From: Prevotella sp.
GTDB taxonomy: Bacteria > Bacteroidota > Bacteroidia > Bacteroidales > Bacteroidaceae
NCBI GenBank assembly: GCA_017478025.1
Contig: JAFVGZ010000030.1
Location: 25,288-89,287, forward strand
Direction of reading: 5' to 3'
DNA: 64,000 nucleotides
The notes beneath the pieces were generated by a model. That model ran no database searches. It saw only the letters and a list, made by a program, of their open reading frames with translations, and was not told the DNA's origin. The number at the start of each line of letters is the position of its first letter. Position 1 is the first letter of the stretch. Below are positions 4,334 through 64,000 of this stretch, in pieces. The translations under genes were made by a program, and so were the position numbers.

Positions 4334-4431
4334 TCCCTGTTTACGTCCCCCTCCCTTAGGGGGAGGGCTGGGGTGGGGCTACTGTCCCTGTTTACGTCCC
4401 CCTCCCTTAGGGGGAGGGCTGGGGTGGGGCT
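4334..4431. repeat. Two direct copies of a GC-rich hairpin element
   Basis: Two 47-bp copies (4334-4380 and 4385-4431) separated by 4 bp. Each contains CCCTCCC-TTAGG-GGGAGGG, able to form a 7-bp stem with a 5-nt loop, followed by CTGGGGTGGGGCT. The second copy abuts the stop codon of the DUF3868/OmpA gene (4432-4434). No U-tract follows on either strand, so it is not a classic terminator; it could slow transcription or protect the upstream mRNA. Confidence 0.85.
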
Positions 4432-10199: not shown

Positions 10200-10245
10200 G
10201 GCGCCGTTTCCTTTTCGACATGTCGATATGTCGATATGTCGAGAC
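10200..10245. repeat. Single copy of the GGCGCC/ATGTCGNN composite repeat
   Basis: GGCGCC, a T-rich spacer, then TCGACATGTCG and two further ATGTCG units. It lies 43 nt beyond the stop codon of the giant minus-strand gene. Confidence 0.8.
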
Positions 10246-10287: not shown

Positions 10288-13200
10288 TCACTTCCCTACA
10301 TAAACCTTCTTTCCTCCTATGATATAGAGGCCCGGTGCCACGTTATTCCTCCATGAACCGTCAAGCACATCTTCACCAATGGCGATGCATCTGCCCTGCA
10401 CGTCATAGACCTTGTCGGCACTCACATCAACAGTCTGCGGCTTAGCCTTCATCTCCTCTTCTTCCTCCATATCCTCATCGAAATCGAAGATGAGAGGCAC
10501 GAACTCCGCAGCCCCGCCCTTGGCACTACCGCTACCGCTTTCTCTATAGTAAATCTTGTTGTGCAGCACATAGCGGTTGTTTCTGTACCATAATGATTGC
10601 GAAGGACTATTTTCTTTGTTAGGATTAGCATTGATGTAGAATCCTAAACCGTTCTTCGCTTTTTCTGGTAACTCTGCTGTAACAGCACCTGTAGCTCTAT
10701 CTATAGTTACGGGAGTCGTAAACGGAAGTCCCATCGTATATACATCGCGAGACGCATCTGCTTCAAGCATCTGCTCCAGATATTTTCCAGAGAAGATGTT
10801 ATTTTCCAATGGATTTTCTTCTGGTCCATTGCTTGGCAGAGCCAACTTCATGCTACCACTTTCGTCAGAAGTACGGATAATGACAGGAGTTCCTGCTGGC
10901 ACGAACTTGCCTTCTTTATAAGTGCTGACTGCAGGCACAGGAACTGGGTTGACGCCCTCGTTGTACCACTTTTTACAGATGTAAGCATTATATGTTTTGG
11001 GGGATGCATCATTAGGCAATAACACATCAAATGGAGCATAGAAAGTAGCGTAGTAGTAATCATCACCACCTTTGTTTGTCTTAATCGTCAGCGGCATCTC
11101 ACCAGCTCCTGCTGTGTTACCCTTCTGCACAGGCTGCATACACCACTTAGCATCGTCGGTCGGACTGTCGTGGTAATATTTCAAATCGTAAATATCTGCA
11201 GCTTTTTTCCATTCTGTCTCATCGGAAGATTCAGCTACGCCATCTAAAGTAGCATCCGTTTCAGATGATGCATCATAGCCTGAAGTAACTGTAAGTTTCT
11301 TGTATGTACCATCATCTAACTTGAAGTAATATGTTCCTTTTGACGTAAGCTTTAAAGCTTTAGCATTCATATCAGTCTCATCTGTTGCCGTCCTTTGGAA
11401 GAAATTACTCTGGTCGAAGTTGAGGTATCTTCTTTGAGCAGGATCTTCACCATCGTGTATCAGCAAAACTGCCCCACCAATATCCATTAAAGTGAAAGTG
11501 ATGGCATCTTCAGAATCCTCTGACATAACAGCCCTTTGCAACCTGTTGGTTCCTTTTCCATCTTTTTCATTATCTGTTCCTGTTGTGTCTCCATTCGGAT
11601 TAGCAGCGACATATAGTCCCTGTGTTTGCATAGTTGAACAAGGATTGCCATCTAAAGTCGTAGTACCATTGAAATAGAATATCGTTGATGGATCTTGTTC
11701 TGTAGGAGCAATAGGAATCGCGCCTCGAGTGGCAGCAGAAATTGTATAACCAGATTCCAAACTGCCTTCACCAGCAAACGTTGTACTTACTCCATACTTG
11801 CTATAGAAGTGCATTGGGATACCACCACTAACCGCAGTCTTCTCAATTTCGTGCAGATAGCCGCTGGCATAGCGTACAGGGGCGATATCCGACACATCAG
11901 GTTGGTTGTGCAAACGGTAGTAACCTGGCTCGTATTTCACGATATTATCATCATTATAGACAATTCCCTGAACTGTTCTCATTTCGTCATAGCTGGCGGT
12001 ACCATTCTTTACCTTATCCAAGAGAGCCTTTCGAAACTTATATTCAGTTTCCTTCAAACCTCCCACATAACCTACACGCTCAACGTAAGGAGCCAACAGG
12101 GTTGCGTCCAAGCCAAAGGTCCACTCAGAATAGCTTGTACTGAGTTTTGCATAGTCGTCACTTGGGTCTTTCCTGATGTAGTACTGAGTTCCCGTATTAT
12201 TGATGACAGGATGGATACGGAAGTAACCTGGATTATTAGAGCCCAACAGTTCATATACTTCATTACCTTCATTACCACTGTCTGGTACCGCCATCTTCAG
12301 ATTCCGTCCGTCAGAAATATCATCAGTTGTCATCACATTCTCCACGCCTCCGCTATTCTTAATCATGTAGCGATTGTACATTCTGAATCCATAGACGTCA
12401 CCGAGCGGAGTCCAAAGATAATCGTTGGTATAGCGTGTCTCACGTCCTTCCATCGACTGCAGTCCCCCTGCATTGGTATAGTGAGCCAAATATGGTGTCG
12501 CAACATCTTGTGTCTCGAAGGTGTACCACAGATTCTGGCCTACACTTGTAACGAAGCCCTCACCGGCATTGGTCTCCAAGCCAGTTTGGAATGCGTATGC
12601 CACATTCACCTTTACAACACTGCCAATGAGTTCTGAATCAGACATCAATTTTGTAATTTCAAGACCTTTATATTTATTGTTCAGACTTTCGCTATCTTGC
12701 CATACATTCGTCCAGTCGTCATTAGTACAATCAACAACAGTATATGTTACAGGAGATACTGCCGTTACTTGAACTCTCTTATATAAATCTATAGTACCTA
12801 TCTTATAGAAGTAATCTCCCGTAGCAGTTTTAGCATTTGCGGATGTAATCATAGCGCTTCCGGTAGTCACTTCTTCTTTGGAAGTTCCTTCACTGTAGGT
12901 TGCTTCTGTAATTGCAGAAATCTCATAGGCCGCATCTTTTGCTCCATCATTAGCTTCTGCCACGTGTACCTTTCTATATATATACTGTTCCGTAATCTTA
13001 TAGTAATAATTACCCACAGCAGCAAGCGATGAAACATCTGAGTTCATTGCATCTTCACTGGCTACCGTTTTCTGATGGGGATCAGCAGTTCCGCCTGTCT
13101 GGATATCATCTACATAGAAGAAGAAGTTACAGTTTGGTCTGTTGAATACTGTTGGCACCTTCAATACATCACCGATGCTGACCTCACCTGCGTCATAGCA

Positions 13201-16200
13201 GTAGGTCTGACCCCAAATAGTTGTGCCCAACTGGTATCTGTCACCTGCAACACCCATAGTAGCATCAGTCAGATTACGTTGCGTAGTGCCTGGAATATCT
13301 TTTTTATCAGAATCCTTCCATGTGTAACTTGTTCCATATGTAGTTTCATTTCCTTCACGATAAGGAATACTTACGTTATCACCTGTTGCGGCAATCACCA
13401 GATGATAAATCAATTTATGCGTAGACAGACCGAAGATGATGAAATATTTAGGTGTAGCATCTGTTGTCAGTGTTTCGCCATAGTCTGTCAGTTTATTACC
13501 ACTGGCATCACCTGTTACCTGCAATACTCCATATTCACAGTCGGCATGTCTGAGCAACATAAAGGTATTTGTTGGTGTTTCACTTAACGTTTCAGTACCA
13601 TCAACATATCTTCCATTGCTTCCATTTCTAATTTCGATAGCGTATGGATCATTGCCATAGAACCTCCAAACATATTCTTTTGCGCCTTCAAGGGGTTTAC
13701 TACCACCATCAGCAATCTGGTCATCAACCCCATCAGCATTGGTATCTATAGCCTTCATCATGTGGTCACCTTCCCATATGATGTTATAAGGCAATTTACC
13801 ACTTATATTTAGGGCTGCAACTTTCGCATCATCTGCTTTCGTTCCTGAGGCATTACGCTTATTAGGCACCGCATACTCCGTATTATCTTCATTGTATGCG
13901 TTATAGCGCACATACACTTTATCATCGTAAAGACCATACAGGGTGAAGAGCTTAGTCAAATCGACAACGGTATAAGTATCATCGCTTGGGTCATCCGGTG
14001 TCGAATTGTTGTTTACGGTTGCACTACCATAATACAGATAGTCGGTCATATTCAGCAATGGTGACTGAATGTTATAAGGCAACGTCGGCGTAAAACCATA
14101 TTCTGTAGCTTCCGCGTTTGTCTGCGTGCCGCTGATGGCCTGTTTCTTGGCGTTATTAATGACGTAATAAGTGTATTCATGTGTCACATCGTCATTTATG
14201 ATAAGTTGGGCGCCTGCGGAGATTGTACCCGTCTTGATCTTGAAGTCCGCCTCTGTAACAGTAGTAGCAGGATAATCATCGTCCATACTTGCTCCATTAA
14301 GGAAGTCATAGGAATACGTGCCCAAACCATTCACAGCAAGAGCATAGCCACCATCAGGATGAGACAACAGGGAGAAACAATCGTGGGTATTTACCTTGAT
14401 AGGTATTCTCATCGGATTGGGTTCTCGCATGTCTTCACAGTAGTTAGCCTGACGATTAAACAACTGTATTGCATACGGGTCTGGAGACTCATGCAACTCA
14501 GATGATTGGTCTATGGGCGCTACCAAGAACTTCCATTGCCACTTTCTGTTACCATCAGTAGTACCATCTACAGTCGGAGTAGGCTTACCTGTTCCTTGCA
14601 AGAGCGATACGCCCATGCCAGTTGTAGTGTTAATTGCATCGCTATCACCACACTTCACATCCTTACCTGCCAGATTGACGGTGAACCACTTGCCTTGCAG
14701 TATTCCGAGTTCGTCAGCACTTGAGTCGTAGCTATAGCGCACATAGACTTTATTGGTCATTCCTGTGAGATCTGCGTCAGCAAACGAACCAGTAATCTCT
14801 CTGTCTGAGATGTCATTACCTGCAGCAATGTCTGCAGACAAAGTCGCATTACTGCCACTCACAACTACTTTCTGATAGTTGTATAATGGACCAACTTTAT
14901 AATAATAGTCCCCATCGCTTGAGAGTGCCTTAGCTTTCTCGTCAAGGTCTTTCTCATCAGTTGCAGTTAGCGAAGAACCAGAAGTTGTGTAGTCTGATTC
15001 GGTACATATTCTGATTGTATTTTTTCCATCTTCTCTTTTTACTTTCTTATAAGCATAGTGCGCTGAACCTAACTGATAGTAGTAAGTACCTTCGGTAAGA
15101 CTCAAGATGGCAGTTTGCATTGTAGCTTCATCTGCTGCACTTCTCGGAGATGCTGACGCATTTTCCCAATCTGCCTGCTTACAGTCTGTCGTAGTATATG
15201 TAGCATTTGTCGTACCCGAATGAGCTTTAGTCACTGTTACCTTCATGTATTCATAAGGTTCGCTTCCACCTATTCTGAAGTAATAGTCATCCAGTACAGT
15301 CAGTGCGTTTGCTGCAGTTGTCATATCACTCTCACTGGCAACGCTCTTCTTGAAGTAATCAGAAGTTGCCGCAGCATTGTAAGATTCCTTATTACTTGCA
15401 GAAGTCGTTGATGCAGCGTGGTCAAAATAGTACTTGAAGTCAGTAGCCAACGGACTCTTGAAGTGCTCGGTAATAGCCGGGAAGTATTCACCTGCTCTCT
15501 TATAGCGCAAAGCCTCCTGTCCATTGTTGTCTAAGATATGATATTCAATCACCTGCGGGCGTACAAAGAAAGTAGTTTGCGGACCCATAGAAGAATTGTT
15601 GTCAACACTTGCTTTAGCATGATCTTTAGGATTCTCTAATGTTGTATTATATGAACTTGCATCGGCATTTATACGCATGCTATGGTCGAAACGGGGCATC
15701 AGTTGCATATTGCCATTGGCATCAGATACCGCCATGAAAGTTTGGTTGGTCATCTTAATATTCGAGTGGTCATGACCTTCATCAACGATTTTACCACCTA
15801 TTACTATGGGTTCATCAGTATTTACATCTTTTCTGTCAACCCAGGTCTCCAAAGTAATATTTGTATTGCCATCCGTACCTGAATAATCGCCCACCATAAC
15901 ACCTCCGCTCAATGCTGTAGTAGTCATGTGGGAGGTCAAATACTTACCTGTGTCAGCATTCTTCAGCTGAATGTTATAAGGGTCAAAACCAGTTTTTTCC
16001 TTATAGCCTTTCTTTGTCTCATATTCTGTCCATGGTTCTCCAGTGTTTCCTCCTTTCTCAGCCCACCTGATACCCATCTCCTTGTCGATATTCAGGTTAG
16101 GCTGAATATACCATAAATGTAAATCATCTATTATGCCATCTCCATCCTTATCAGGAGCAAGATATCCCTGGTCTGGATAACCATTTTGGCTTGGTGAGAG

Positions 16201-19200
16201 TATCATGTCATATACATTACCCCCAGTTGGTTCGGTTGCTTCAGAAATAGGTTTACTAAGATAACTGGTTACCTTATCATCGTTTTCAACTTTTCTAAAG
16301 TATCGTCCATTCTGCAATATCAGGAACTTTGATGGAGTTCCAGACTCCGTATAGGTAGAGTCTTCCTCGTGCAGTTCCAGGTGATATTTATAACTGTTCT
16401 CGTATTCCTCTTTTACGGTATAGGTGACATACAGGTCCTGAACGGCTCCACCGCTGATGACACCAGATGCCGCACGAGGAGGCAGCACCGCCAGCGATGA
16501 GGAGGTATAGTGCTTCCCATTGTATTTTATCTGGTCTCGTTCTGCTCCATTCTGCATTCTGAGTGAATACTTATGGCAACCAGATGCCTTTGATGCATTG
16601 TTGTAGAACTTATATTCCTTCACCAACGGGCTGTCGTAAACCTTTAGTGCTGTCAGTTCGTCACCGTAAGGATATGTCGCCAACTTAGGCAGGGGCTTAC
16701 GCATAATCTCCCAGCCGTGACGGTCGAGCAACACGAGTACAGGCGGAATGTCAGCACTCTCTATTTCGAAGGAGCCGTCGCCCATTTCGAAGGTCTGGAA
16801 CCAGTGCTCCAGTTTCTCTACCACCTTCTTCTCGTGACCACCTGACTTATCGTTGTATCCGTTCCAACGTGTTGCATTGGCAATAGCATCGTAGCTGTGC
16901 CATGCTCCACTGCCTATGCCTAATTCCTGCAGTTTCGTATTCAACTCATCCCTTTTTTCTGCAGGAACTACCCATGTATCTTCATCATTATCGAACTTAT
17001 CCGTTGATTTTGATATTCCAAGCACATGCAACTTTACCATGTTATAGGTCTTCCAATACTGCTCGAAGGAAGTTACATCCTGACGCACATTCTCTTCTGC
17101 ATCATCCGTATCCTCATCACCATTAAGGTCAACAGGCACAGGATTGGTGGTTCGCAACTTGTAGTTTCCTATGGTACCAAGTATCATGTATTCGGTCGGA
17201 TCAGTTGATGCAATACCTGGCAAAGCTCCACCTGTGACTACACGTTGTTTTTTTGCGTCTGCTCCTGTATCTTGATTGAAGTGCACAGCGTATGTCTGCA
17301 GATAAGTGGGGTGCTGAACACCATCATACGTTATATTACTCTTAGAGTGTATCGTGACATGGTATGGGTCATCGTTATCGCTGTCGAAGTACCATATCCA
17401 GCGCGGACGGGCGCTGGAGCCACCATTCATCTGCTCCGCGTTCAAATCCTCTCCATAGATGTTGAGGTTACCGTCACCGTTGGTATATGGATACATCGCT
17501 TTGATTGGATCACTTGTCAACTTGTCACTACCATCCTCCAACTTGTAGCTGCTACCGTTCTTAAACCTCAGCATATAGGGACTGTTGTCATCGTTGAACT
17601 TCACGAGGTTGTTCACAGTATATGTGACATATACCTCAAAAGGTCCATTTTCCGGATTAATCTCTGTGATGTTGCCTGTATGCAATCCATCATCTACATC
17701 ATCTTTTGCCAATGCTTCTGTCGGAAAATAATAATAAGTATCTACCAGTGGACTGACAAATTCAGCGGGCAATGCAAGACGTGGGTTGTTTGATGAAACT
17801 TGTAGTAAATCAACTTTAGCCTTGTCTATCAAATGATAAGTAATGGCTTTTTTGCCAGACAACTCAAAGCGTAAAGTGGGGTCTCCATGTGCATAGCCAG
17901 CGGTATTAACACTATATACCTTTGTTTCAGCATTTTCTGTCGAAGGGCGACCTATGTGATAGTAATCTGTAGTACCAGTTGCAGCCAAGACCTCATAAAC
18001 ACCGATGGTGATGCTATTACTCAGCATGGCTACAAAACGTGAAGCGGCCTCTCTGTCGTTGACAAATGTCAAAGCCTTGTCATTATCCCAAGTGCCACCA
18101 TCTACCTGAACAAACATTCCATTATCGACTTGTTCTGTAGTGTTAGTACCGTCGCCTTTGGTATCATAGACATTGATTGTTATTCGCGGCTCTGTATGCC
18201 CAAAACTCGCTCCAACGTTATCTATACGCATAGCATAAGGGTCGCGGCCTCTCAGGTGCCAGAGGTACTGATCTTTTGCAAGATCATCTGTCGTAGCACT
18301 TACATTACTCATAATTTTTCCGGATGAACTATCCCAATAAATGTACTCGCCGTTCAGCTTGACATTAAACTGTTGACTATAAATCAACTTAATACCCTTG
18401 CTCGTCAGAGTCGATGTAGTATATGCCACAAAGATGTCTGCGTTATTCGTAGCAGGAGTTTGTGTGAGAGGTGTCTGTTCATAAGACGAATAGGTAGATG
18501 TACCGGAATCATAATTATAATGCCAGTCTCTACGGTCTCTATATCCATCTCCATTTATGTCCGTATAACTGTCATAGAAAGTAATCTCCTCGTCTGCCAG
18601 GAACGGGCTGCGAATTACCTCAGGAATGCTGGTATAACCCGTAAGATTCGAGAAGATAGTCTGAGTGGCAGTTGCTTTTATAGCAATATTACCCGCCAAG
18701 TCAACGACATTATAAGTGTAAGTGAATTCCGGCAGTTCCATCACCTTGATGCGGGTAGGATCTGCATCACCAAGGGCTACATTGTGGCCAGCAGATGTAG
18801 CATCCCACTTCCAATAACTGGATGTAGTGCAAAGATTACTTCCATATTGTTGCAGCACAAAACTGCCGTCTGTTTCATCTACAGGTATTTCCCAACTGTA
18901 GGCATTAGCCAACTGATTGATAGTAATTACAGTAGGTGTTCCTGAAGGAGTCGTGCCGTCACTTTCGTACTCCTGCACGGTAATAGTCATTGTCTTTGCT
19001 GTACCGTCATTGGCATTTAGGGTAACAGTTATGGTTTCTATTGTACCTATTTCGTCTGTAGCTGTATCAAGCGTTGGAGTAGTTGATTCAACTTGAGCTG
19101 TGCCATCGGTGCCTCCTTTTGTGACTTTTATCTTTTTCTCACCATTTAATCCACTGATAGTGAATGTCAGAGTCTTTTGCCCCGAAGCAAGGTTTTCTGT

Positions 19201-20964
19201 ATCAAATGTATAGCTTGTGCCATACGTAAAATTAGAAGTATTATTGGGGGTATAGGCAGACCCTGCTATACCTAAGGTGTAAGAACCTCCGACATAGCGA
19301 TTCCTTTCTGCCGTTTCTGCCGTTTCTGTTGCGTTGCGGTAAAGCACTCTCAGCTCGTAAGGGTCACCAACAAAGGCGAACTCACTCAGTTTATTATATT
19401 CAGCATTGCCGCCATTGTTCTTGAAGGCGGAACTTCCGTCCCATTTTAACTTCTTTCCGCTACTTTGGTCGCTTTCTGCATCTGTCAATTCATACCAAGT
19501 AGCTGTGGTGTATGATTCCGCAGGCTTTATGGTTTTGAATGGTAAAGTGATAGACACTTCATAGCCTACATAGATAGTATTCCCTTCTGCCTCAGAATAT
19601 TTGGTGATTTCCTCCGTGAGAGCAGCATCCTTATAGAACTTACCAGTATAGTTGATGTATTTTCTGTCTAACGCAGAAGGTATGTCCTCAACTTTTATCT
19701 CATCATGCTCTATGGTGTATCTACTACGTTTGATAGAAGACGTAACATTGCTACCAAACGGAGTAACAACCTTGAAATAGACATCCTCAGGTTCATACAT
19801 CTCATCGTCAGTAGCATAATTATTTGCGGCAGTTTCAACAGGCATGGCCACAAACTTAACTACTGCATAGTTGTTTTGAAGGAAGAAATATTGTTGATTG
19901 TTTGCAGGAACTTCAATATCTCCGTTACTTTTAACGTTTTTACTTGCCATGAAGACATACTTGTTATTTTTGTCTTTCGCGTTCAGCAAGGCAAACGAGT
20001 TCCAAACAGGAACAGCGAGATTACGGAAGTAATCTTCCTTGGCCTCAAAGCCAACAGGCCACTTAGGATCAGAGGTGTTTGTGTATATTACATTATATTT
20101 TTTGTCGTCGTCACTAGCTATAAGCATCTCGTCGGTTGATTTTGAAAAAATACGAGCTTCCTTATAATACTTGTTTACTTGCCCAATATCATTGGCATAT
20201 TTTTCTATGTAATGTGTGTCCTTATTGTAAGCAGTACGTATGGTAATATTGTATGGGTCATTTCCCTCATATTTAAAGAGAAAATGAAATTGAGAAGCTA
20301 CATCTTCTCTCTTGTTTTTGTTATTTGTGGCATCATTCCAATATGTCTTATCCTTAAGATTTTGAACATTGGAAACATTTACATAGACAAAGTCTTCGCT
20401 GACGAGTTGTTCTGCTGAAACATGATCTTTTGGAACGACAGCTACACGGTTGTTACGACCTCGGTTAAACGCGAGGAAGCCATCGCCCATTGAGATGTTA
20501 TAAGTCATACCTCCATTGAGGTCAATTGGACTGGTAGCATTATCGTAAGAGTAGGTAACATAGATGTCGCAGTCCTCGGATATAGAAGATCCTGACGTCA
20601 AAGGCGTGGCTCCATCATTAATTGTATAGGTGTAATACTTGGTACCGTGGTTTTTATAAATAGCCTGTGCAGAACCGCTTTTGGTAATATCCTTTTTTGC
20701 ATAGTATGTGTAATCAGTAGCCAATGGACTTTTGAACTGATCAGGCAATTCTACTGCATAACCATTCGTCACAAAAACTCTGATGGCCTCCGTACGTATA
20801 TCAGATACATTGGGAGTAGTTCCATCATCCTGATACGTTGTAAACGGCAACGTCAGCACATGGTATGTTACTTTATGTGCCCACGCCTTATTCGCCGCGC
20901 CGCAGAGGAGCAGCAGGGTCAGGAGAAAAGTGTATATTCGGGTATGTTTGAACAATATCTTCAT
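10288..20964 (-). CDS. Giant secreted modular protein (3,558 aa) with T9SS-like C-terminal tail
   Basis: The start is placed at the internal ATG at 20964: MKILFKHTRIYTFLLTLLLL then a signal-peptidase site at KAWA|HK. A large module is repeated about eight times, each with a W...DPYxIxIxN core (near residues 238, 538, 909, 1200, 1661, 2161, 2438 and a weaker one at 2855) preceded by a 'SPL...YYYF' and 'VYVRYxY' segment; beta-trefoil or lectin-like folds are a guess. A ~40-residue unit of the type A-S-x-x-x-M...GxYYYKIGxxYxYKKVxV recurs about six times in the second half. Residues ~640-700 end in a BACON-like TITINQL strand. The end has a domain seen in Prevotella exported proteins (YYATFYAPFDVLLP...PAGTPVIIRT) and then VYDVQGRC...NVAPGLYIIGGKKVYVGK, a type-A-like sorting tail. 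It follows a fimbrillin gene; surface adhesin role inferred. Confidence 0.85.
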   Translation of the reverse strand: MKILFKHTRIYTFLLTLLLLCGAANKAWAHKVTYHVLTLPFTTYQDDGTTPNVSDIRTEAIRVFVTNGYAVELPDQFKSPLATDYTYYAKKDITKSGSAQAIYKNHGTKYYTYTINDGATPLTSGSSISEDCDIYVTYSYDNATSPIDLNGGMTYNISMGDGFLAFNRGRNNRVAVVPKDHVSAEQLVSEDFVYVNVSNVQNLKDKTYWNDATNNKNKREDVASQFHFLFKYEGNDPYNITIRTAYNKDTHYIEKYANDIGQVNKYYKEARIFSKSTDEMLIASDDDKKYNVIYTNTSDPKWPVGFEAKEDYFRNLAVPVWNSFALLNAKDKNNKYVFMASKNVKSNGDIEVPANNQQYFFLQNNYAVVKFVAMPVETAANNYATDDEMYEPEDVYFKVVTPFGSNVTSSIKRSRYTIEHDEIKVEDIPSALDRKYINYTGKFYKDAALTEEITKYSEAEGNTIYVGYEVSITLPFKTIKPAESYTTATWYELTDAESDQSSGKKLKWDGSSAFKNNGGNAEYNKLSEFAFVGDPYELRVLYRNATETAETAERNRYVGGSYTLGIAGSAYTPNNTSNFTYGTSYTFDTENLASGQKTLTFTISGLNGEKKIKVTKGGTDGTAQVESTTPTLDTATDEIGTIETITVTLNANDGTAKTMTITVQEYESDGTTPSGTPTVITINQLANAYSWEIPVDETDGSFVLQQYGSNLCTTSSYWKWDATSAGHNVALGDADPTRIKVMELPEFTYTYNVVDLAGNIAIKATATQTIFSNLTGYTSIPEVIRSPFLADEEITFYDSYTDINGDGYRDRRDWHYNYDSGTSTYSSYEQTPLTQTPATNNADIFVAYTTSTLTSKGIKLIYSQQFNVKLNGEYIYWDSSSGKIMSNVSATTDDLAKDQYLWHLRGRDPYAMRIDNVGASFGHTEPRITINVYDTKGDGTNTTEQVDNGMFVQVDGGTWDNDKALTFVNDREAASRFVAMLSNSITIGVYEVLAATGTTDYYHIGRPSTENAETKVYSVNTAGYAHGDPTLRFELSGKKAITYHLIDKAKVDLLQVSSNNPRLALPAEFVSPLVDTYYYFPTEALAKDDVDDGLHTGNITEINPENGPFEVYVTYTVNNLVKFNDDNSPYMLRFKNGSSYKLEDGSDKLTSDPIKAMYPYTNGDGNLNIYGEDLNAEQMNGGSSARPRWIWYFDSDNDDPYHVTIHSKSNITYDGVQHPTYLQTYAVHFNQDTGADAKKQRVVTGGALPGIASTDPTEYMILGTIGNYKLRTTNPVPVDLNGDEDTDDAEENVRQDVTSFEQYWKTYNMVKLHVLGISKSTDKFDNDEDTWVVPAEKRDELNTKLQELGIGSGAWHSYDAIANATRWNGYNDKSGGHEKKVVEKLEHWFQTFEMGDGSFEIESADIPPVLVLLDRHGWEIMRKPLPKLATYPYGDELTALKVYDSPLVKEYKFYNNASKASGCHKYSLRMQNGAERDQIKYNGKHYTSSSLAVLPPRAASGVISGGAVQDLYVTYTVKEEYENSYKYHLELHEEDSTYTESGTPSKFLILQNGRYFRKVENDDKVTSYLSKPISEATEPTGGNVYDMILSPSQNGYPDQGYLAPDKDGDGIIDDLHLWYIQPNLNIDKEMGIRWAEKGGNTGEPWTEYETKKGYKEKTGFDPYNIQLKNADTGKYLTSHMTTTALSGGVMVGDYSGTDGNTNITLETWVDRKDVNTDEPIVIGGKIVDEGHDHSNIKMTNQTFMAVSDANGNMQLMPRFDHSMRINADASSYNTTLENPKDHAKASVDNNSSMGPQTTFFVRPQVIEYHILDNNGQEALRYKRAGEYFPAITEHFKSPLATDFKYYFDHAASTTSASNKESYNAAATSDYFKKSVASESDMTTAANALTVLDDYYFRIGGSEPYEYMKVTVTKAHSGTTNATYTTTDCKQADWENASASPRSAADEATMQTAILSLTEGTYYYQLGSAHYAYKKVKREDGKNTIRICTESDYTTSGSSLTATDEKDLDEKAKALSSDGDYYYKVGPLYNYQKVVVSGSNATLSADIAAGNDISDREITGSFADADLTGMTNKVYVRYSYDSSADELGILQGKWFTVNLAGKDVKCGDSDAINTTTGMGVSLLQGTGKPTPTVDGTTDGNRKWQWKFLVAPIDQSSELHESPDPYAIQLFNRQANYCEDMREPNPMRIPIKVNTHDCFSLLSHPDGGYALAVNGLGTYSYDFLNGASMDDDYPATTVTEADFKIKTGTISAGAQLIINDDVTHEYTYYVINNAKKQAISGTQTNAEATEYGFTPTLPYNIQSPLLNMTDYLYYGSATVNNNSTPDDPSDDTYTVVDLTKLFTLYGLYDDKVYVRYNAYNEDNTEYAVPNKRNASGTKADDAKVAALNISGKLPYNIIWEGDHMMKAIDTNADGVDDQIADGGSKPLEGAKEYVWRFYGNDPYAIEIRNGSNGRYVDGTETLSETPTNTFMLLRHADCEYGVLQVTGDASGNKLTDYGETLTTDATPKYFIIFGLSTHKLIYHLVIAATGDNVSIPYREGNETTYGTSYTWKDSDKKDIPGTTQRNLTDATMGVAGDRYQLGTTIWGQTYCYDAGEVSIGDVLKVPTVFNRPNCNFFFYVDDIQTGGTADPHQKTVASEDAMNSDVSSLAAVGNYYYKITEQYIYRKVHVAEANDGAKDAAYEISAITEATYSEGTSKEEVTTGSAMITSANAKTATGDYFYKIGTIDLYKRVQVTAVSPVTYTVVDCTNDDWTNVWQDSESLNNKYKGLEITKLMSDSELIGSVVKVNVAYAFQTGLETNAGEGFVTSVGQNLWYTFETQDVATPYLAHYTNAGGLQSMEGRETRYTNDYLWTPLGDVYGFRMYNRYMIKNSGGVENVMTTDDISDGRNLKMAVPDSGNEGNEVYELLGSNNPGYFRIHPVINNTGTQYYIRKDPSDDYAKLSTSYSEWTFGLDATLLAPYVERVGYVGGLKETEYKFRKALLDKVKNGTASYDEMRTVQGIVYNDDNIVKYEPGYYRLHNQPDVSDIAPVRYASGYLHEIEKTAVSGGIPMHFYSKYGVSTTFAGEGSLESGYTISAATRGAIPIAPTEQDPSTIFYFNGTTTLDGNPCSTMQTQGLYVAANPNGDTTGTDNEKDGKGTNRLQRAVMSEDSEDAITFTLMDIGGAVLLIHDGEDPAQRRYLNFDQSNFFQRTATDETDMNAKALKLTSKGTYYFKLDDGTYKKLTVTSGYDASSETDATLDGVAESSDETEWKKAADIYDLKYYHDSPTDDAKWCMQPVQKGNTAGAGEMPLTIKTNKGGDDYYYATFYAPFDVLLPNDASPKTYNAYICKKWYNEGVNPVPVPAVSTYKEGKFVPAGTPVIIRTSDESGSMKLALPSNGPEENPLENNIFSGKYLEQMLEADASRDVYTMGLPFTTPVTIDRATGAVTAELPEKAKNGLGFYINANPNKENSPSQSLWYRNNRYVLHNKIYYRESGSGSAKGGAAEFVPLIFDFDEDMEEEEEMKAKPQTVDVSADKVYDVQGRCIAIGEDVLDGSWRNNVAPGLYIIGGKKVYVGK

Positions 20965-21062
20965 GATGCTATTGATTTCCTGTATCATCTTGATTTCCAT
21001 TCGGATATATTTCGTTCGTCTGTACTGAATGCTATTCCTATCTTTGTGACGGGACGTCCGTC

Positions 21063-21200
21063 GAGGGGTGGCGCCTTTTTCTCTTTCGACATGTCGTTAT
21101 GTCGTTATGTCAGTATGGCGAGGGGTGGCGCCGATTCCTCTTTCGACATGTCGTTATGTCGTTATGTCGATATGGCGAGGGGTGGCGCCGATTCTTCCCT
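21063..21200. repeat. 57-bp tandem repeat (GAGGGGTGGCGCC + ATGTCGNN), three starts
   Basis: GAGGGGTGGCGCC begins at 21063, 21120 and 21177, a strict 57-bp period. Between copies lie a T-rich spacer, TCGACATGTCG and three 8-bp ATGTCGNN-type units. It fills the gap between the giant gene and the fimbrillin gene. Confidence 0.92.
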
Positions 21201-21249: not shown

Positions 21250-22251
21250 TTACCATTGCTCGGTGAACTTGCTGATATTTACCTTTAGTCCGTACTTGTC
21301 GAGGGTCAGGTTGTAGGTGTAGATGTATCCTGGTTCCCAGTTGAAGTCCACATTGGTGCCGTAGTCGCTGATTGTTACGTCGCTCCAGTCGTCCCAAGTG
21401 GCGTTGACGGTGAGGTATTTCGAGCCGTAGTTGTAGGGGATTACAAGGAAAGGAGTGGATTCTGTAGTTCCACCGTTTTTCAGCACTTGAGCTATCGTCA
21501 TTGTGGCGCTGCCGGAGTATGAGCCCCACGTCATTGTACTACCATTATAGGTGCATGTGCCGCTGGTTTTCAGGTCGCTAATGCTGATACTGTTTATCTG
21601 GACATGTGTGCCGCTGGCAGCAGTAATGGTAAACTTGATGAGGGCAAGCGGGTGCTTGAATACCATCGGCAAAGCGCCTCCAGCTGCTGTCTGTGTGGCA
21701 AGGGTTTGGTTGGTCAGCACAGATACCAGGAATTCCTCCATGTTTGCCTGCTGAGCGAGAGTCATATAGCTACTCATGTCACAGGTGAAGGATACAGCCC
21801 CTGTGCTATGGTCGTATGTTGGAGCACCGATATATGATGGCTTTGTGTAAGGGCAGAAGCCCACGAAGTCGAGAGCTGACGCTGTTGTTGGTTCACCAGC
21901 TATTGTTACTGTAGAGCCTTCGAAGGGCCAGTAGTAATGAGTCTGAGCGCCAGCAGCCCAGAACACCCAAGCCGGATCGCCGCCGGTGTAATGCAGCATA
22001 CTGCCATCAAAGTACTTTTCATTTGTACCGCGATAGTATGCATCTATCTTTAGGTCCTTTGTCTGCAGTGAGGCAATGTTATCGACAGTAGCGGCGCGAG
22101 TCTGCATTGTTGCCAGGTTGGTCCGGACACATATTTCCGTCGGAATCAGATTCTGCTGACTACCTTCGCCGCCGTCGTCAGAGCCGCCGCATGCTGCCAG
22201 CAGCATTGCTGCGAGCATCATTATTCCTTTTATATATATATAGTGTTTCAT
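21250..22251 (-). CDS. Fimbrillin-family lipoprotein (Mfa-like)
   Basis: 333 aa from the ATG at 22251. Lipobox LAAC (Cys21), GGSDDGG spacer, and a Thr-Arg site (MQTRAATVD, Arg52). The body carries Mfa_like_1-type features: ALPMVFKHPLALIKFTITA, FLVIPYNYG, YIYTYNLTLDKYGLKV. An in-frame ATG at 22431 would add 60 residues that are nothing but the translated 57-bp repeat (RHTVITTSRHVEKG-type), so the internal start is preferred. It sits between the four-helix gene and the giant gene; a minor or tip pilus subunit that might present or anchor the giant protein is an inference. Confidence 0.82.
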   Translation of the reverse strand: MKHYIYIKGIMMLAAMLLAACGGSDDGGEGSQQNLIPTEICVRTNLATMQTRAATVDNIASLQTKDLKIDAYYRGTNEKYFDGSMLHYTGGDPAWVFWAAGAQTHYYWPFEGSTVTIAGEPTTASALDFVGFCPYTKPSYIGAPTYDHSTGAVSFTCDMSSYMTLAQQANMEEFLVSVLTNQTLATQTAAGGALPMVFKHPLALIKFTITAASGTHVQINSISISDLKTSGTCTYNGSTMTWGSYSGSATMTIAQVLKNGGTTESTPFLVIPYNYGSKYLTVNATWDDWSDVTISDYGTNVDFNWEPGYIYTYNLTLDKYGLKVNISKFTEQW

Positions 22252-22253
22252 TT

Positions 22254-22490
22254 CGTTATGTCGATATGTCGGTATGACGGTATGTCGAGGGGTGGCGCCT
22301 TTTTCTCTTTCGACATGTCGAGATGTCGTTATGTCGGTATGTCGAGGGTGGCGCCGAAGTCCTTTTTCGACATGTCGAGATGTCGTTATGACGGTATGTC
22401 GAGGGGTGGGGCCGGGGTCCTTTTTCGACATGTCGAGATGTCGTTATGACGGTATGTCGAGGGGTGGCGCCGGGCTTTTTTCGAGCGGCG
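22254..22490. repeat. 57-bp tandem repeat, four copies, upstream of fimbrillin
   Basis: GAGG(GG)TGGCGCC-type starts at 22287, 22344, 22401 and 22459 (period 57, 57, 58), each followed by a T-rich spacer, CGACATGTCG and ATGTCGNN-like units. The minus-strand frame stays open across 180 bp of it because 57 is a multiple of three. Confidence 0.92.
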
Positions 22491-23264: not shown

Positions 23265-23336
23265 GGTCGTTATGCCGAGGAGCGGCACTGAGGCTTTTTT
23301 TCGACATGTCGGTATGTCGGTATGTCGAGGATGGCG
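23265..23336. repeat. Composite GGCGCC/ATGTCGNN repeat copy
   Basis: One copy of the composite unit (T-rich run, TCGACATGTCG, two ATGTCG units, GAGGATGGCGCC) upstream of the four-helix gene start. Confidence 0.85.
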
Positions 23337-23342
23337 CCGATT

Positions 23343-23440
23343 CTTCACTCTTCACTCTTCACTTATCACTCTTCACTTATCACTCTTCACTTATCACTCT
23401 TCACTCATAATTCTTCACTCTTCACTCTTCTCTCTTCACT
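23343..23440. repeat. Heptamer array CTTCACT/TATCACT
   Basis: Fourteen 7-bp units in strict register: mostly CTTCACT with TATCACT alternating in units 4-8 and two degenerate units. No coding function on either strand. It lies within the 327-bp gap 23250-23576. Confidence 0.92.
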
Positions 23441-25004: not shown

Positions 25005-25230
25005 AATTTGATTTGTTTTAAAGATTAATAAAATAGTTTGTTCGTTTTTTGTTTTGGCGGCCATTGCTTTTTATCGCAATATGTCGTCGTGACTATATGT
25101 AGATATCTCTCTCCGGTCCGCCCATCTGGTTGATTGAGTTCTTAATGTTAATGTACTGTCTGTTTCGTATCGGGTCCTTTCTTTGTTAGTGGGTTGGTAA
25201 TTATCTTAACTCACTCTTTTGTTTTTTTTC

Positions 25231-25302
25231 TAGGGAATTTAGGAATTTAGGAGTTTTCCTTCTCTGAAACTTCTTCCTTAGTTCCTTGATTCCTTAGACT
25301 TA
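25231..25302. repeat. GGAATTTA/TTCCTTAG inverted octamer repeat, copy 1
   Basis: The left arm CTAGGGAATTTAGGAATTTA is an imperfect inverted match to the right arm TTCCTTAGTTCCTTGATTCC, about 20 nt apart, both with 8-bp period. The right arm runs into the last codons and the stop of the GxxExxY gene (KESRN plus TAA). A degenerate ATGTCG stretch lies at about 25078-25098. The rest of 25005-25277 shows nothing definite. Confidence 0.82.
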
Positions 25303-25679
25303 TCATATCGGGAGTTCACCACTGGGTGGATTTCCTCTTTTATGTTTTCTGTATTGAAGTTTATGACATATCCCATTTCGCAGTTCGTCAGCCTCAGGTA
25401 GGTGAGCAGCTGTTTCTCAAACAGTTTGCGGTATTCCACAACCGACTTCAGTTCCAAGATGAGCCGGTCATCCACGATGAGGTCGAGTCTTAGGTCAGGG
25501 CAGATCAGCTCTCCTTTGTAATAGACGGGGACCGGCACTTGGTTCCTGACCTTGAAGCCCTGATGTGTCAGCTCACGGATCATGGCTTGCTCGTATATTG
25601 ATTCGAGCAGTCCCGGCCCGAGGGTCTTGTAAACCTCGTACACGCATCCGAGTACCTTGTATGTGTAGTCTCTGTCCAT
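25278..25679 (-). CDS. GxxExxY protein (PDDEXK_3-like)
   Basis: 133 aa, cytoplasmic. It carries the defining motif GPGLLESIYEQAM (residues ~21-33), then YYKGELICPDLRLDLIVDDRLILELKSV, in which Asp and Glu-Leu-Lys match the PD-(D/E)xK nuclease-like core, and LLTYLRLTNCEMGYVINF. The biological role of the family is unknown. It is bracketed by copies of the GGAATTTA/TTCCTTAG repeat, and its C-terminal codons lie inside one copy, which suggests that gene and repeats moved or were duplicated together. It interrupts an otherwise surface-protein operon. Confidence 0.9.
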   Translation of the reverse strand: MDRDYTYKVLGCVYEVYKTLGPGLLESIYEQAMIRELTHQGFKVRNQVPVPVYYKGELICPDLRLDLIVDDRLILELKSVVEYRKLFEKQLLTYLRLTNCEMGYVINFNTENIKEEIHPVVNSRYDKSKESRN

Positions 25680-25686
25680 TTTTTTT

Positions 25687-25813
25687 CTAGGGAATTTAGG
25701 AATTTAGGAGTTTATTTTCAACGGTTGATTGGACTTAGTCTAGGGAATTTGGGAATTTAGGAGTATTTTTTTTCTCTGAAACCTCTTCCTTAGTTCCTAG
25801 GTTCCTTAGACTT
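25687..25813. repeat. GGAATTTA/TTCCTTAG repeat, partial copy and full copy
   Basis: A partial copy (25687-25713, left arm only) and a full copy (25740-25813) including the TTCTCTGAAAC spacer and TTCCTTAG right arm seen in copy 1. Direct repeats therefore flank the GxxExxY gene. The stop codon of the DUF5119 gene lies 13 bp further on. Confidence 0.85.
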
Positions 25814-25825
25814 GGTTTCTTAGAC

Positions 25826-26926
25826 TTAGCCTATCGGGACGTCTGTGCGTTCCTCTTCCCATTGTTCCACCGTGGGGGCTATGCCGGCACCGCCTTCTGG
25901 CTTTGGAACGTTTATCGGGGTCTTGATGTGTATGTGGTGGTCAGGGTTGATGAAATCATCTGTTATGTCCTCGGTGATCAGTATCTCCTCGCCTCCGGTG
26001 CTGGTTATCAGGATGTGGAGGAAGGCGCGGCTCTCGCCAGGCAGCTTGCCGAAGGTGTTGAAGGTGGTGCTGATGCCTATCGTGTTCGGCTTCACCTCTA
26101 TGGGGAAATAGATGGTGGCCGGCTCCGTGTTCTTCTCTCCGCGACCGAAGAAGTTGCTGCGGGCCTGATTGGTGACAAACGCCTCGATGCTTTGTATGTA
26201 CTGTATGCCCGTGATGTTATGGATAGAGAAGTCATAGGTCTCTATGATGGTCCTCATCTGCGCATCTATGACATATATGCCGCTCTCCACCTGCTTAGGT
26301 ATCTCCACCTGTTTGCGCACCACCAGCAGGTGGTCGGGGGTGTAGATGATAGGCCCGGGTGCCTCAGACTCTCCGCCTCGGGTGAAGCGGCTCAGCGCGC
26401 TGGCCTTCTGTCTGGTGATGTCGCTGGTGAACGCCTCGAGGGTGTTGATGTCGCCCTCGCCGCGCACCTGTGTCCACTCCGTGCCGAAGGAGTATGCCAC
26501 CATGTCGTATGTGCCGGGACTGATGTATATCGGACCGCGGTCGCCCTTGACAAACTCCGATCTGTTCAGCGTGCCGCTCTCCGGGTTGTAGAAGTTCGCC
26601 TTCGTGTATTCCGGGATGTCGATCTTCGTATGCGTCTCGTCGTCAACGGGGAAGTCATAGTCCGTGTCGATCTCGAAATGCAGCTGGAGGATCAGGTCAT
26701 AGTCCGTGCCGTGAGTGTGGTCGTAACACAGGTCCTTGTACTGGCAGGAGGTGAGGAGGACGGCGGTGATCGACATAACGGCATATCGGCATATCGAGGC
26801 GAGGCGCCAACTGTCGGCATATCGGCATATCGGCATATCGACATATCGACGACCCACGGCGCCTATCGACATGACGACATATCGACATATCGACATAACG
26901 ACAAGGAAAAAGGCGCTTCTTCTCAT
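25826..26926 (-). CDS. DUF5119 lipoprotein whose signal peptide is split by a repeat array
   Basis: 366 aa from the ATG at 26926. That ATG overlaps the TGA of the upstream DUF3575 gene (ATGA) and has AAAGGAGG just before it, so this start is well supported. The lipid Cys would be residue 61, in the motif CQYKDLCYDHTHG typical of DUF5119. Residues 11-50 are translated octamer repeat (MSICRYVV-type). Removing them joins MRRSAFFLVV to MSITAVLLTSC, a normal lipoprotein leader. The mature part is beta-rich with two apparent repeats (YDFPVDDETH..., IEVKPNTIGISTTFNTFGKL). DUF5119 proteins occur in fimbrial loci, but their function is unknown. Secretion with the 60-residue leader is uncertain. Confidence 0.82.
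   Translation of the reverse strand: MRRSAFFLVVMSICRYVVMSIGAVGRRYVDMPICRYADSWRLASICRYAVMSITAVLLTSCQYKDLCYDHTHGTDYDLILQLHFEIDTDYDFPVDDETHTKIDIPEYTKANFYNPESGTLNRSEFVKGDRGPIYISPGTYDMVAYSFGTEWTQVRGEGDINTLEAFTSDITRQKASALSRFTRGGESEAPGPIIYTPDHLLVVRKQVEIPKQVESGIYVIDAQMRTIIETYDFSIHNITGIQYIQSIEAFVTNQARSNFFGRGEKNTEPATIYFPIEVKPNTIGISTTFNTFGKLPGESRAFLHILITSTGGEEILITEDITDDFINPDHHIHIKTPINVPKPEGGAGIAPTVEQWEEERTDVPIG
26776..26905. repeat. Octamer array inside the DUF5119 reading frame
   Basis: ATGTCGNN and ATGCCGNN units (coding strand) interrupted by two GGCGCC blocks, the same composite element as in the intergenic gaps but here in the opposite orientation relative to the gene. The 11-bp sequence GTTATGTCGAT occurs at both ends of the inserted 120 bp. 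Confidence 0.9.
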
Positions 26927-27708
26927 TTCCTGCCTCCTTTCTTCTTGCGGGCCGGGCCCAGTATCCATTTCAGCGTCACCTCTGCCTTGGTGGGGCCCCA
27001 CCAGTGGCGTTTCTTTGTTGCCAGCCAGACGTAGTGGCCGCTATCATCGTCGGCAGGCTCATACTCCTTGTACTCACCGTCCTGAAAGCCTACGCCCAGG
27101 GAGAAGTCGAGGTCCAGACGCTTGCCGATGCGCTTGGAGTAGCCGTACTCTATGCCGCCACCGAAGCCGAACTTGGCTGCCTGATAGCCCTTGCCGCCCC
27201 ATTCCACGTCGTATGTAACGCCAGTCATATACACGCCCAGATGGTGTCCGGTGGGGAACGGAGAACATTGACCATTGACCGTTGACCGTTGACCATTGAC
27301 CGTTGACCGTTGACCATTGACCGTTGACCGTTGACCATTGGCCTGTTTTCCGAAGTATTTTCTGACGCCGAGGTAACCGCCATAGCCCTGCCAATAGCGG
27401 TGGCGCGAGTCGTTCTTGAACCATGTATAGAGCCAGTCGAGGCCCACGGTCCATCGCTTGCCGAGGTTCACCTCAATGCCCACATTCGGCACCAGTACGG
27501 CATCATAGAGCAGATTGGTCTTGAGGGCTATCCTATTTGGCTTTGGTTTATCAGATTTATCCTTCCCGTAACTCTCACTGTCATAAACAGATACGCCCTT
27601 CTGTCCGGTGTCCTCAGCACTCGTTGACTGAGCCATCGCCGTGCCTGCTAAGCTTACCGTAAGCAGGGCAACCATCAAGCATATCTTTATGTTTTCGATG
27701 AGGTTCAT
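26923..27708 (-). CDS. DUF3575 protein with internal heptamer-encoded repeat, first gene of operon 2
   Basis: 261 aa. Signal peptide to TAMAQ (about residue 27), then NRIALKTNLLYDAVLVPNVGIEVNLGKRWTVGLDWLYTWF, the DUF3575 core, and barrel-like aromatic strands. Residues 124-147 are NGQRSTV repeated three times plus NGQ, encoded by a heptanucleotide array and lying between two predicted strands, so probably in a loop. The protein ends in a basic tail (ARKKKGGRK) not seen in the two paralogs, overlapping the next gene by 4 bp for translational coupling. A strong promoter lies 37 nt upstream. Confidence 0.86.
   Translation of the reverse strand: MNLIENIKICLMVALLTVSLAGTAMAQSTSAEDTGQKGVSVYDSESYGKDKSDKPKPNRIALKTNLLYDAVLVPNVGIEVNLGKRWTVGLDWLYTWFKNDSRHRYWQGYGGYLGVRKYFGKQANGQRSTVNGQRSTVNGQRSTVNGQCSPFPTGHHLGVYMTGVTYDVEWGGKGYQAAKFGFGGGIEYGYSKRIGKRLDLDFSLGVGFQDGEYKEYEPADDDSGHYVWLATKKRHWWGPTKAEVTLKWILGPARKKKGGRK
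27267..27343. repeat. Heptamer array RTTGACC inside a DUF3575 gene
   Basis: Ten perfect 7-bp units (ATTGACC or GTTGACC) plus one degenerate unit, with a superimposed 21-bp period (A,G,G) that yields NGQRSTV in protein. Loss or gain of one or two units would shift the frame. Confidence 0.95.
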
Positions 27709-32745: not shown

Positions 32746-32838
32746 GGTGCCACGCTCGACATAACGACATGTCGAAAAAAGATAGAAGCGGCGCCACACT
32801 CGACATAACGACATATCGACATAACAACATGTCGAAAA
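32746..32838. repeat. Composite GGCGCC/CGACATNN repeat, two copies
   Basis: GGTGCC (32746) and GGCGCC (32790), each followed by CACxCTCGACAT octamers and ending ACATGTCGAAAAA. The orientation is reversed with respect to the left half of the window, so on the coding strand the units again read CGACAT. Confidence 0.88.
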
Positions 32839-62939: not shown

Positions 62940-64000
62940 ATGAAAACATTAAGAAAATTCCTCGTACTGGCCATCATTCCACTAATGGCAGCTACTGTTA
63001 GTTCATGCACTGACTATCAAGACGAGATTGACGCGCTGGACAACCGCGTAACGAGGCTTGAGGACCTTGCCAAAGTAATCAACTTCAAGCTGGAGGCACT
63101 GCAAGTCCTTGCTGATGCACTGGAGAAGGCTGACTACATCATCGGTGTCACAGAGAACAGCGAGGGATGTATCATCACCTTCAAGAAGGCAGGCGCCATA
63201 TTCATACGCAACGGTATAGACGGAATCGACGGCACAGATGCACAGATGCCAAACATCTCAATGGCACAGGCTCCTGACGGAAACCTCTACTGGACTCTGA
63301 ACGGAGAATTTGTTCTCTCACCCGAGGGCAACCTGATCCGTGCCAACGGTAAGGACGGTAAGGACGGTAAGGACGGCGTGGCAATGGCACCACAGATACG
63401 CATCAACCCAACAACCCTCTACTGGGAAGTGTCATACGACGGCGGCAACACATGGATCAGCACCGCTGTATTTGCAAAGGGTAAGGACGGTAAGGATGCC
63501 GAGGCTCCTGAAATCACTATGAAGGAAGGCGGCGACGGTAACTACTACTGGACTGTCAACGGCGTATTTGTCCTCACTCCTGACGGCAGCATGATACGCG
63601 CCAACGGTAAGGACGGTAAGGACGGTAAGGCTATCGGCCCACAGGTACGCATCAACCCTGAGACCTACAACTGGGAAGTGTCATACGACGGCGGCGTAAC
63701 ATGGATCAGCACTACTGTTTATGCAAAGGGTAAGGACGGTAAGGACGGCAAGGATGCCGAGGCTCCTGAAATCGGTATCAAGCAGGGAGACGACGGCAAC
63801 TTCTACTGGACTATCAATGGTACATTCATCATGACCAGCGATGGCAAGATGGTACCTGCTAACGGTAAGGACGGTAAGGACGGTAAGGCCGTTGCTCCAA
63901 AGGTGCGCATCAACCCGACAAACCTGATCTGGGAGATTTCCTATGACGACGGCAATACATGGGTAAGCACCGGTACCCAGGCAGTCGGCAAGGACGGCAA
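62940..64000 (+). CDS. DUF4988-type lipoprotein with collagen-like GKD repeats, 3' end outside window
   Basis: At least 353 codons, open at the right edge. Lipobox VSSC (Cys23), then a coiled-coil YQDEIDALDNRVTRLEDLAKVINFKLEALQVL as in DUF4988 (PL29-lyase-type N-terminal) proteins. At least four ~80-residue modules follow (GDGNYYWTVNGVFVLTPDG...NPxTxxWEVSYDGGxTWIST) joined by GKDGKDGK linkers encoded by GGTAAGGAC 9-mers. Predicted surface lipoprotein; the coiled coil may make it a trimeric or fibrous stalk. Whatever domain the stalk carries lies beyond the window. Probably co-transcribed with the OmpA-family gene. Confidence 0.8.
   Translation, partial: MKTLRKFLVLAIIPLMAATVSSCTDYQDEIDALDNRVTRLEDLAKVINFKLEALQVLADALEKADYIIGVTENSEGCIITFKKAGAIFIRNGIDGIDGTDAQMPNISMAQAPDGNLYWTLNGEFVLSPEGNLIRANGKDGKDGKDGVAMAPQIRINPTTLYWEVSYDGGNTWISTAVFAKGKDGKDAEAPEITMKEGGDGNYYWTVNGVFVLTPDGSMIRANGKDGKDGKAIGPQVRINPETYNWEVSYDGGVTWISTTVYAKGKDGKDGKDAEAPEIGIKQGDDGNFYWTINGTFIMTSDGKMVPANGKDGKDGKAVAPKVRINPTNLIWEISYDDGNTWVSTGTQAVGKDG

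Follow-up and report, generated by a model that had tools for sequence, protein, structure and literature searches.

In Neisseria, CTCTT repeats lie in the leader-coding region of the opa genes, which vary in phase at a rate of about 1e-3 per cell per generation (opa passages of PMC3960869). The Prevotella lipoprotein signal peptide described here resembles opa in that short non-triplet repeats code part of a surface-protein leader and the other frames soon stop. It differs in that its units are diverged and belong to a composite module of 54 to 57 nucleotides that also lies outside genes, the protein is a Bacteroidota lipoprotein, and the units vary by species. The pil1 pilus locus of Streptococcus gallolyticus also has repeats of a non-triplet unit, GCAGA, within a leader-coding sequence; there they belong to a distinct regulatory leader peptide upstream of a terminator (PMC3894217), whereas the repeat in the window lies in the exported protein's own signal peptide.

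Rickettsia palindromic elements are in-frame insertions in protein genes (relevant section of the review PMC10969869). Similarly, the module has dispersed copies (eight pattern matches, two of them in this leader) and occupies, in frame, a gene whose three nearest relatives do not carry it. Unlike the spread of the Rickettsia elements across many unrelated genes, only one confirmed gene is found here among 25 array loci; the site is a signal peptide, and the inserted unit is an octamer-based module that is local and arranged in tandem. TAACTGA heptamer direct repeats, mostly intergenic, occur in Beggiatoaceae and some Bacteroidetes (excerpts of PMC4679880), and G-rich heptamer repeats in Xanthomonas and Nostoc (excerpts of PMC4692102). 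Our arrays share with these intergenic repeats dispersed short units, a position mostly outside genes, and a patchy distribution among lineages, but they use other units, of 8 nucleotides in the window, and recur in signal-peptide codons. Type V autotransporters have extended signal peptides. The leader studied here is likewise long and has two hydrophobic stretches, but it owes this length to repeats and belongs to a lipoprotein. In a survey of short tandem repeats, bacteria were on average not enriched and Bacteroidota were among the high-density phyla (extract of PMC12699852). No report of octamer or heptamer arrays in Prevotella, or of repeat-coded signal peptides in Bacteroidota, was found in the open-licence literature, among the matches listed.

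A fimbrial-locus lipoprotein gene with repeats in its leader

The window, meaning the whole 64,000-nucleotide stretch of DNA that was analysed, comes from a draft Prevotella genome of 2.93 Mb in 43 contigs (84.68% complete). Two features define the gene of interest:

25826..26926, minus strand: DUF5119 / Mfa2-like lipoprotein gene, 366 codons (assigned by Pfam and by orthologues with the same gene order)
26744..26926, minus strand: signal peptide (leader), codons 1-61, the last of them the lipobox Cys (from sequence and hydropathy)

This open reading frame (ORF) matches Pfam PF17145 (DUF5119) with an E value of 8e-21 and 75.2 bits against a cut-off of 27, and falls just below the cut-off for Mfa2 (PF08842; E 4e-4, 20.5 bits versus 21.2). 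Together with neighbors matching PF12099 and PF13149, the DUF5119 score places the protein among the Bacteroidales Mfa/Fim-type fimbrial accessory lipoproteins. Same-strand neighbors are a DUF3575 gene (26923-27708), two fimbrillin-like genes, and an ORF of the PD-(D/E)XK family; the opposite-strand neighbor is a second DUF3575 gene. The two nearest relatives in one search are uncultured Prevotella records at 62% and 57%, one of them RUG124, so an uncultured Prevotella-like bacterium is the probable source of the window; the three nearest relatives compared share 64, 58, and 50% protein identity. Four stretches matched a pattern in a search for the DUF5119 gene on viral contigs; none encodes a relative, and this candidate was set aside.

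The start codon is well fixed, because AGGAGG (a Shine-Dalgarno sequence, SD) precedes the ATG and a 4-nucleotide ATGA joins the start to the stop of the DUF3575 gene, an overlap common to relatives (the same in L054 and L036, as GTGA in L055). The start proposed on these grounds in the initial annotation thus holds. From this ATG, the leader comprises 60 residues before the lipobox Cys and is read through ATGTCGNN octamers. Hydropathy indicates two hydrophobic stretches, at about codons 4-19 and 48-60.

The leader contains three tandem copies of a composite module

The pentamer GCGCC recurs at gene nucleotides 11, 65, and 120, defining tandem modules spaced 54 and 55 nucleotides apart. The leader repeat is three tandem copies of a composite module (GCGCC, a tract, and octamers), and what had been taken for the native first half of the leader is largely module:

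26863..26916, minus strand: module copy 1, GCGCCTTTTTCCTT and then octamers ATGTCGNN; 54 nucleotides to the next GCGCC
26808..26862, minus strand: module copy 2, GCGCCGTGGGTC and then octamers ATGTCG/ATGCCG; 55 nucleotides to the next GCGCC
26769..26807, minus strand: module copy 3, short, GCGCCTCGCC and then octamers, running into ITAVLLTSC
26769..26899, minus strand: 120-nucleotide interval of the initial annotation plus the second direct copy of GTTATGTCGAT (gene nucleotides 28-38 and 148-158)

The observations that drew attention to the gene largely stand, namely the start, the in-frame ATGTCGNN octamers inside the signal peptide, and a 120-nucleotide interval bounded by direct copies of GTTATGTCGAT at gene nucleotides 28 and 148; the interpretation is partly supported, and the proposed extent and architecture need revision. 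The repeat is not confined to codons 10-51 but begins upstream of codon 10, and codons 4-8 (SAFFL), previously considered native, fall within the composite module. Similarly, in place of a single homogeneous octamer array there are three modules with two unlike spacer stretches. A 51-nucleotide match (82% complementary) between 22295-22345 and 26866-26916 covers GCGCCTTTTTC (codons 4-7) and the codons that follow. Since this match takes in codons 4-7 and GCGCC recurs, deleting the 120 nucleotides would leave repeat-derived codons in place rather than restore a textbook leader.

The lag-8 self-match score of the leader is 26, and its longest perfect period-8 tract spans 27 nucleotides (3.4 units). 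Among 91 DUF5119 leaders, neither 200 rounds of codon-order shuffling (lags 7, 8, 10, and 11) nor 100 rounds of dinucleotide shuffling (lags 7-11) produced a leader at a score of 14, indicating that leader periodicity does not arise by chance.

The module clusters at the fimbrial locus

A pattern describing the module has eight matches in the 2.93-Mb draft, all on one contig (C4) within window 10201-32794 and thus inside 22.6 kb of the fimbrial locus; two are in the DUF5119 leader, and the reversed control has none. Copies outside this leader, together with one related stretch, are as follows:

10200..10243, plus strand: single module copy, downstream of a giant ORF
21062..21194, plus strand: tandem module copies (57 nucleotides), between two minus-strand ORFs
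22251..22474, plus strand: tandem module copies (57-58 nucleotides), located where the minus-strand fimbrillin-like ORF 21250-22431 begins and coding the first codons of that ORF
23280..23338, plus strand: module-like stretch, 62% to the reference copy and unmatched by the module pattern, followed by a TCTTCAC heptamer array (23342-23440)
32760..32830, minus strand: module copy with an octamer array, flanked by two plus-strand ORFs

A looser octamer pattern has 80 matches in the genome (47 + 33; control 0), which we grouped into 25 loci, arguing against the octamer array as a purely local invention. Eight of the 25 loci lie inside 28.6 kb of contig C4, where 0.24 would be expected. Apart from the DUF5119 leader, the 24 other loci are outside long ORFs, in short ORFs of at most 154 amino acids, or, for one locus, in the array-coded extension of ORF 21250-22431, a placement that rests on lists of ORFs of at least 100 amino acids. 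Three exact octamers in a row occur 33 times in the window's genome and once each in 3 of 199 other genomes of the genus. The octamer is therefore nearly private to the window's genome.

Repeat arrays recur in the leaders of DUF5119 relatives

At an E value of 1e-6, the DUF5119 profile is present in 90 of 398 genus genomes, with each species represented by a single genome. The leader set was built from 88 of the 109 listed matches (21 weak matches, with E above 1e-9, were left out) and five further loci; removing the duplicates L130 and L077 from these 93 gave 91 leaders, whose starts and lipoboxes were assigned by script and may in some cases be wrong. An array was called at a score of at least 14 at any lag from 7 to 11.

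Arrays are present in nine of the 91 leaders, and their units are mostly different: 7 nucleotides in L054, L057, L069, and L140, 8 in the window, L099, and L119, and 9 in L114 and L116, whose units look alike. Leaders hold 10 arrays in 7.3 kb, the 700 nucleotides upstream hold 10 in 60.9 kb, and the mature DUF5119 coding sequence (74.3 kb, from partial-length stretches of relatives) holds none. The absence of arrays from the mature sequence, together with both shuffles, excludes a low-complexity artefact. The orthologue comparison that the initial annotation had called for shows that the long leader is not shared and that some orthologues carry other repeats. None of the three nearest relatives has the window's module.

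A dispersed palindromic element is found in three more leaders (L086, L087, and L090). Its arm has 12 matches in genome G034, two of them in DUF5119 leaders, two in G083, one of them in a leader, and none in the window's genome. By eye, weaker repeats below the scoring threshold are visible in the L055 and L058 leaders, and a longer one in L102.

Leader change in paired relatives and arrays in control lipoproteins

For eight pairs of relatives chosen by us, 400 nucleotides upstream, 500 nucleotides of mature sequence, and the leader were compared. L069, which has a heptamer array, and L068, for which none was scored, are 97.2% identical upstream and 92.2% in the mature part but 73.9% in the leader. 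Similarly, L099 (8-mer) and L102 share 90.5% upstream and 85.4% in the mature part, versus 53.6% across the leader, where the alignment has 57 gap columns. The L114/L116 pair, both with 9-mers, shows no excess leader change (leader 61.5% versus mature 59.7%, 15 gap columns). In the five array-free pairs, leader identity equals or exceeds mature identity (leader/mature, 92.6/92.0, 95.4/90.2, 72.6/69.0, 86.9/78.0, and 83.3/79.0%; the first of these has 39 gap columns from the assigned start). Arrays thus accompany fast leader change in two of three array pairs.

Among control lipoproteins, leader arrays were found at 2 of 49 SusD loci (both L148) and at none of 52 fimbrillin loci. The comparison of 9/91 DUF5119 leaders with 2/101 controls gives a Fisher P of 0.027 with relatedness ignored, the control leaders having been extracted by a different rule. 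Applied to the DUF5119 loci, the control rule recovers 80 of the 91 leaders and eight of the nine arrays, which excludes the stricter rule having hidden arrays in the controls; a looser rule gives 78 DUF5119 leaders with all nine arrays and 2/51 and 0/56 in the controls. Because leader arrays also occur at SusD loci, they are not private to DUF5119, and the excess of arrays in DUF5119 over other lipoproteins is modest.

Origin of the leader repeat

The idea that a repeat has invaded the gene gains support from nearest relatives without the module, from module copies outside genes elsewhere at the locus, and from an octamer nearly private to this genome. We consider it likely that a module confined to the locus was copied into the DUF5119 leader, where it would now stand in three tandem copies, having replaced or split the older leader in frame; for the window's leader, capture from the local module appears to be the simplest reading. 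Specifically, the fimbrial-locus module, with its GCGCC, tract, and ATGTCGNN octamers, would have been copied into signal-peptide codons, at a guess by slippage or by recombination between copies. The signal peptide may well be the tolerant part of the gene, as it is cleaved off and would need no more than a positive N-terminus, a hydrophobic segment, and a lipobox, so that a stop-free and sufficiently hydrophobic repeat on the coding strand could persist. The last stretch, RYAVMSITAVLLTSC, probably still directs export, which would make for a long leader, and on/off switching, if any, would be a by-product. An Arg and an Asp within the repeat part of the 61-codon leader count against capture by a tolerant leader.

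Capture need not apply to every relative. In the L054 genome, triple units of CAATTGT match nowhere but in the leader array (two overlapping matches), suggesting that this array likely grew in place. Across the leaders, the best reading is that short repeats have been repeatedly captured by, or have grown in, a tolerant signal peptide.

An opa-like phase-variation device, in which octamers would be gained or lost by slippage, the frame lost, and fimbrial assembly or anchoring switched, is in our assessment quite unlikely. As predicted in the initial annotation, a change of one 8-nucleotide unit would shift the frame, and the alternative frames of the DUF5119 gene stop at nucleotide 228, or at 62 and 233. 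The repeats also occupy the leader position known from opa (as given in the excerpts of PMC3960869), the neighbors are fimbrial, and cleaner arrays exist in some relatives (L069, L054, and L099). The leader thus shares with opa its location and a non-triplet unit followed by early stops, but not a homogeneous perfect tract: the octamer units have diverged, no perfect tract exceeds 27 nucleotides, and one module spacing, of 54 nucleotides, is in frame. Further, ATGs in frame inside the array (gene nucleotides 31, 55, 91, and 151) could restart translation, and all but one of the 25 octamer loci fall outside long ORFs or within an ORF extension. The same ATGs could mean that translation really starts within or beyond the array, the repeat being an ordinary spacer in an over-long ORF, much as the neighboring ORF 21250-22431 has an array-coded extension ahead of a plausible start. 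We find this very improbable, since the SD and the DUF3575 overlap sit at the identical spot in relatives, a start at the last ATG would leave 10 residues before the Cys, and the inner ATGs, judged by eye, are without an SD.

Control at the RNA level, with a long hairpin in the sense leader transcript tuning translation or transcription as in the GCAGA leader of S. gallolyticus pil1, likewise has a very slim chance of being correct. The folding energy of the 158-nucleotide leader RNA is -66.4 kcal/mol (z -4.3 relative to dinucleotide-shuffled sequences; z -3.7 for the 183-nucleotide leader), and control of a pilus operon by repeats through a leader peptide is known (described in excerpts of PMC3894217). 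The shuffles lose periodicity, however, and the array may pair with itself for that reason alone. Only one of the eight other array leaders is similar (L119, z -4.6), the rest ranging from -1.8 to +1.7. A z of -3.7 also occurs in one of 79 array-free leaders. With the signal absent from seven of eight other array leaders, we reject an RNA hairpin function common to array leaders. Terminator function was also considered for the module and set aside, as the region has 13 terminator-like sites versus 9.5 (standard deviation 3.0) in shuffles, not clearly above expectation. Finally, an assembly artefact, with repeat reads misjoined within the gene, is hardly credible. The draft assembly is rich in repeats, and such repeats reportedly cause assembly breaks in a different Bacteroidetes genus (PMC4679880), but the 366-codon frame stays open across all three dissimilar modules and on into the mature protein, which is conserved, and leader arrays are found in other species too.

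Significance of repeat-coded leaders

Capture from the local module, the preferred reading, would make the window's leader a well-anchored case of repeat entry into a signal peptide and an example of a pattern that several species of the genus show, in which repeats seem able to rewrite the leader quickly. A bolder proposal is that signal peptides of Prevotella surface lipoproteins are a genus-wide, recurrent home for arrays of 7- to 9-nucleotide units that differ among species, that their leaders are rewritten far faster than the exported proteins, and that the cleaner arrays are opa-like contingency switches of fimbriae; as a whole, we regard this as doubtful. In several species, and with units that differ, short repeats that are otherwise extragenic become coding sequence at a single defined and tolerant site, the leader. 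They offer a clean system for asking how repeats enter genes and how relaxed the requirements for a signal peptide are, and for asking whether commensal Bacteroidota own Neisseria-like, leader-based switches of surface fimbriae. The data also suggest that, for genes with array leaders, gene-calling programs may put the start in the wrong place.

Additional repeats in the window

The DUF3575 gene upstream of the lipoprotein gene contains a repeat of its own:

27268..27340, minus strand: TTGACCG heptamer array, 73 nucleotides, perfect at period 21, in frame in a loop of the DUF3575 gene 26923-27708

The higher-order unit of 21 nucleotides preserves the DUF3575 reading frame. This heptamer loop is absent from the relatives compared (L054, L055, and L036), and TTGACCG has 40 triple-unit matches in the window's genome.

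The TCTTCAC heptamer array at 23342-23440 directly adjoins an octamer array, and the TCTTCAC unit also codes part of the L140 leader. A looser TCTTCAC-type pattern has 50 matches in the window's genome. TCTTCAC-like heptamers match in all 13 genomes tested, with the reversed control also scoring in 12 of the 13.

Several other elements were noted. A single ORF of 3570 codons occupies window 10288-21000, beside the fimbrillin-like genes. Direct repeats at 25222-25313 and 25679-25839 (80-100% alike) flank and slightly overlap the small PD-(D/E)XK family ORF 25278-25679, and the ORF with its repeat borders looks like a cassette. Nearly two perfect copies of a 51-nucleotide repeat with a palindrome-like CCCCCTCCC..GGGGGAGGG core lie at 4334-4431, beside an octamer array; by eye, this repeat resembles the element in leaders L086, L087, and L090. 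At 63276-63971, tandem 258-nucleotide repeats (75% matches) contain embedded ACGGTAAGG nonamers.
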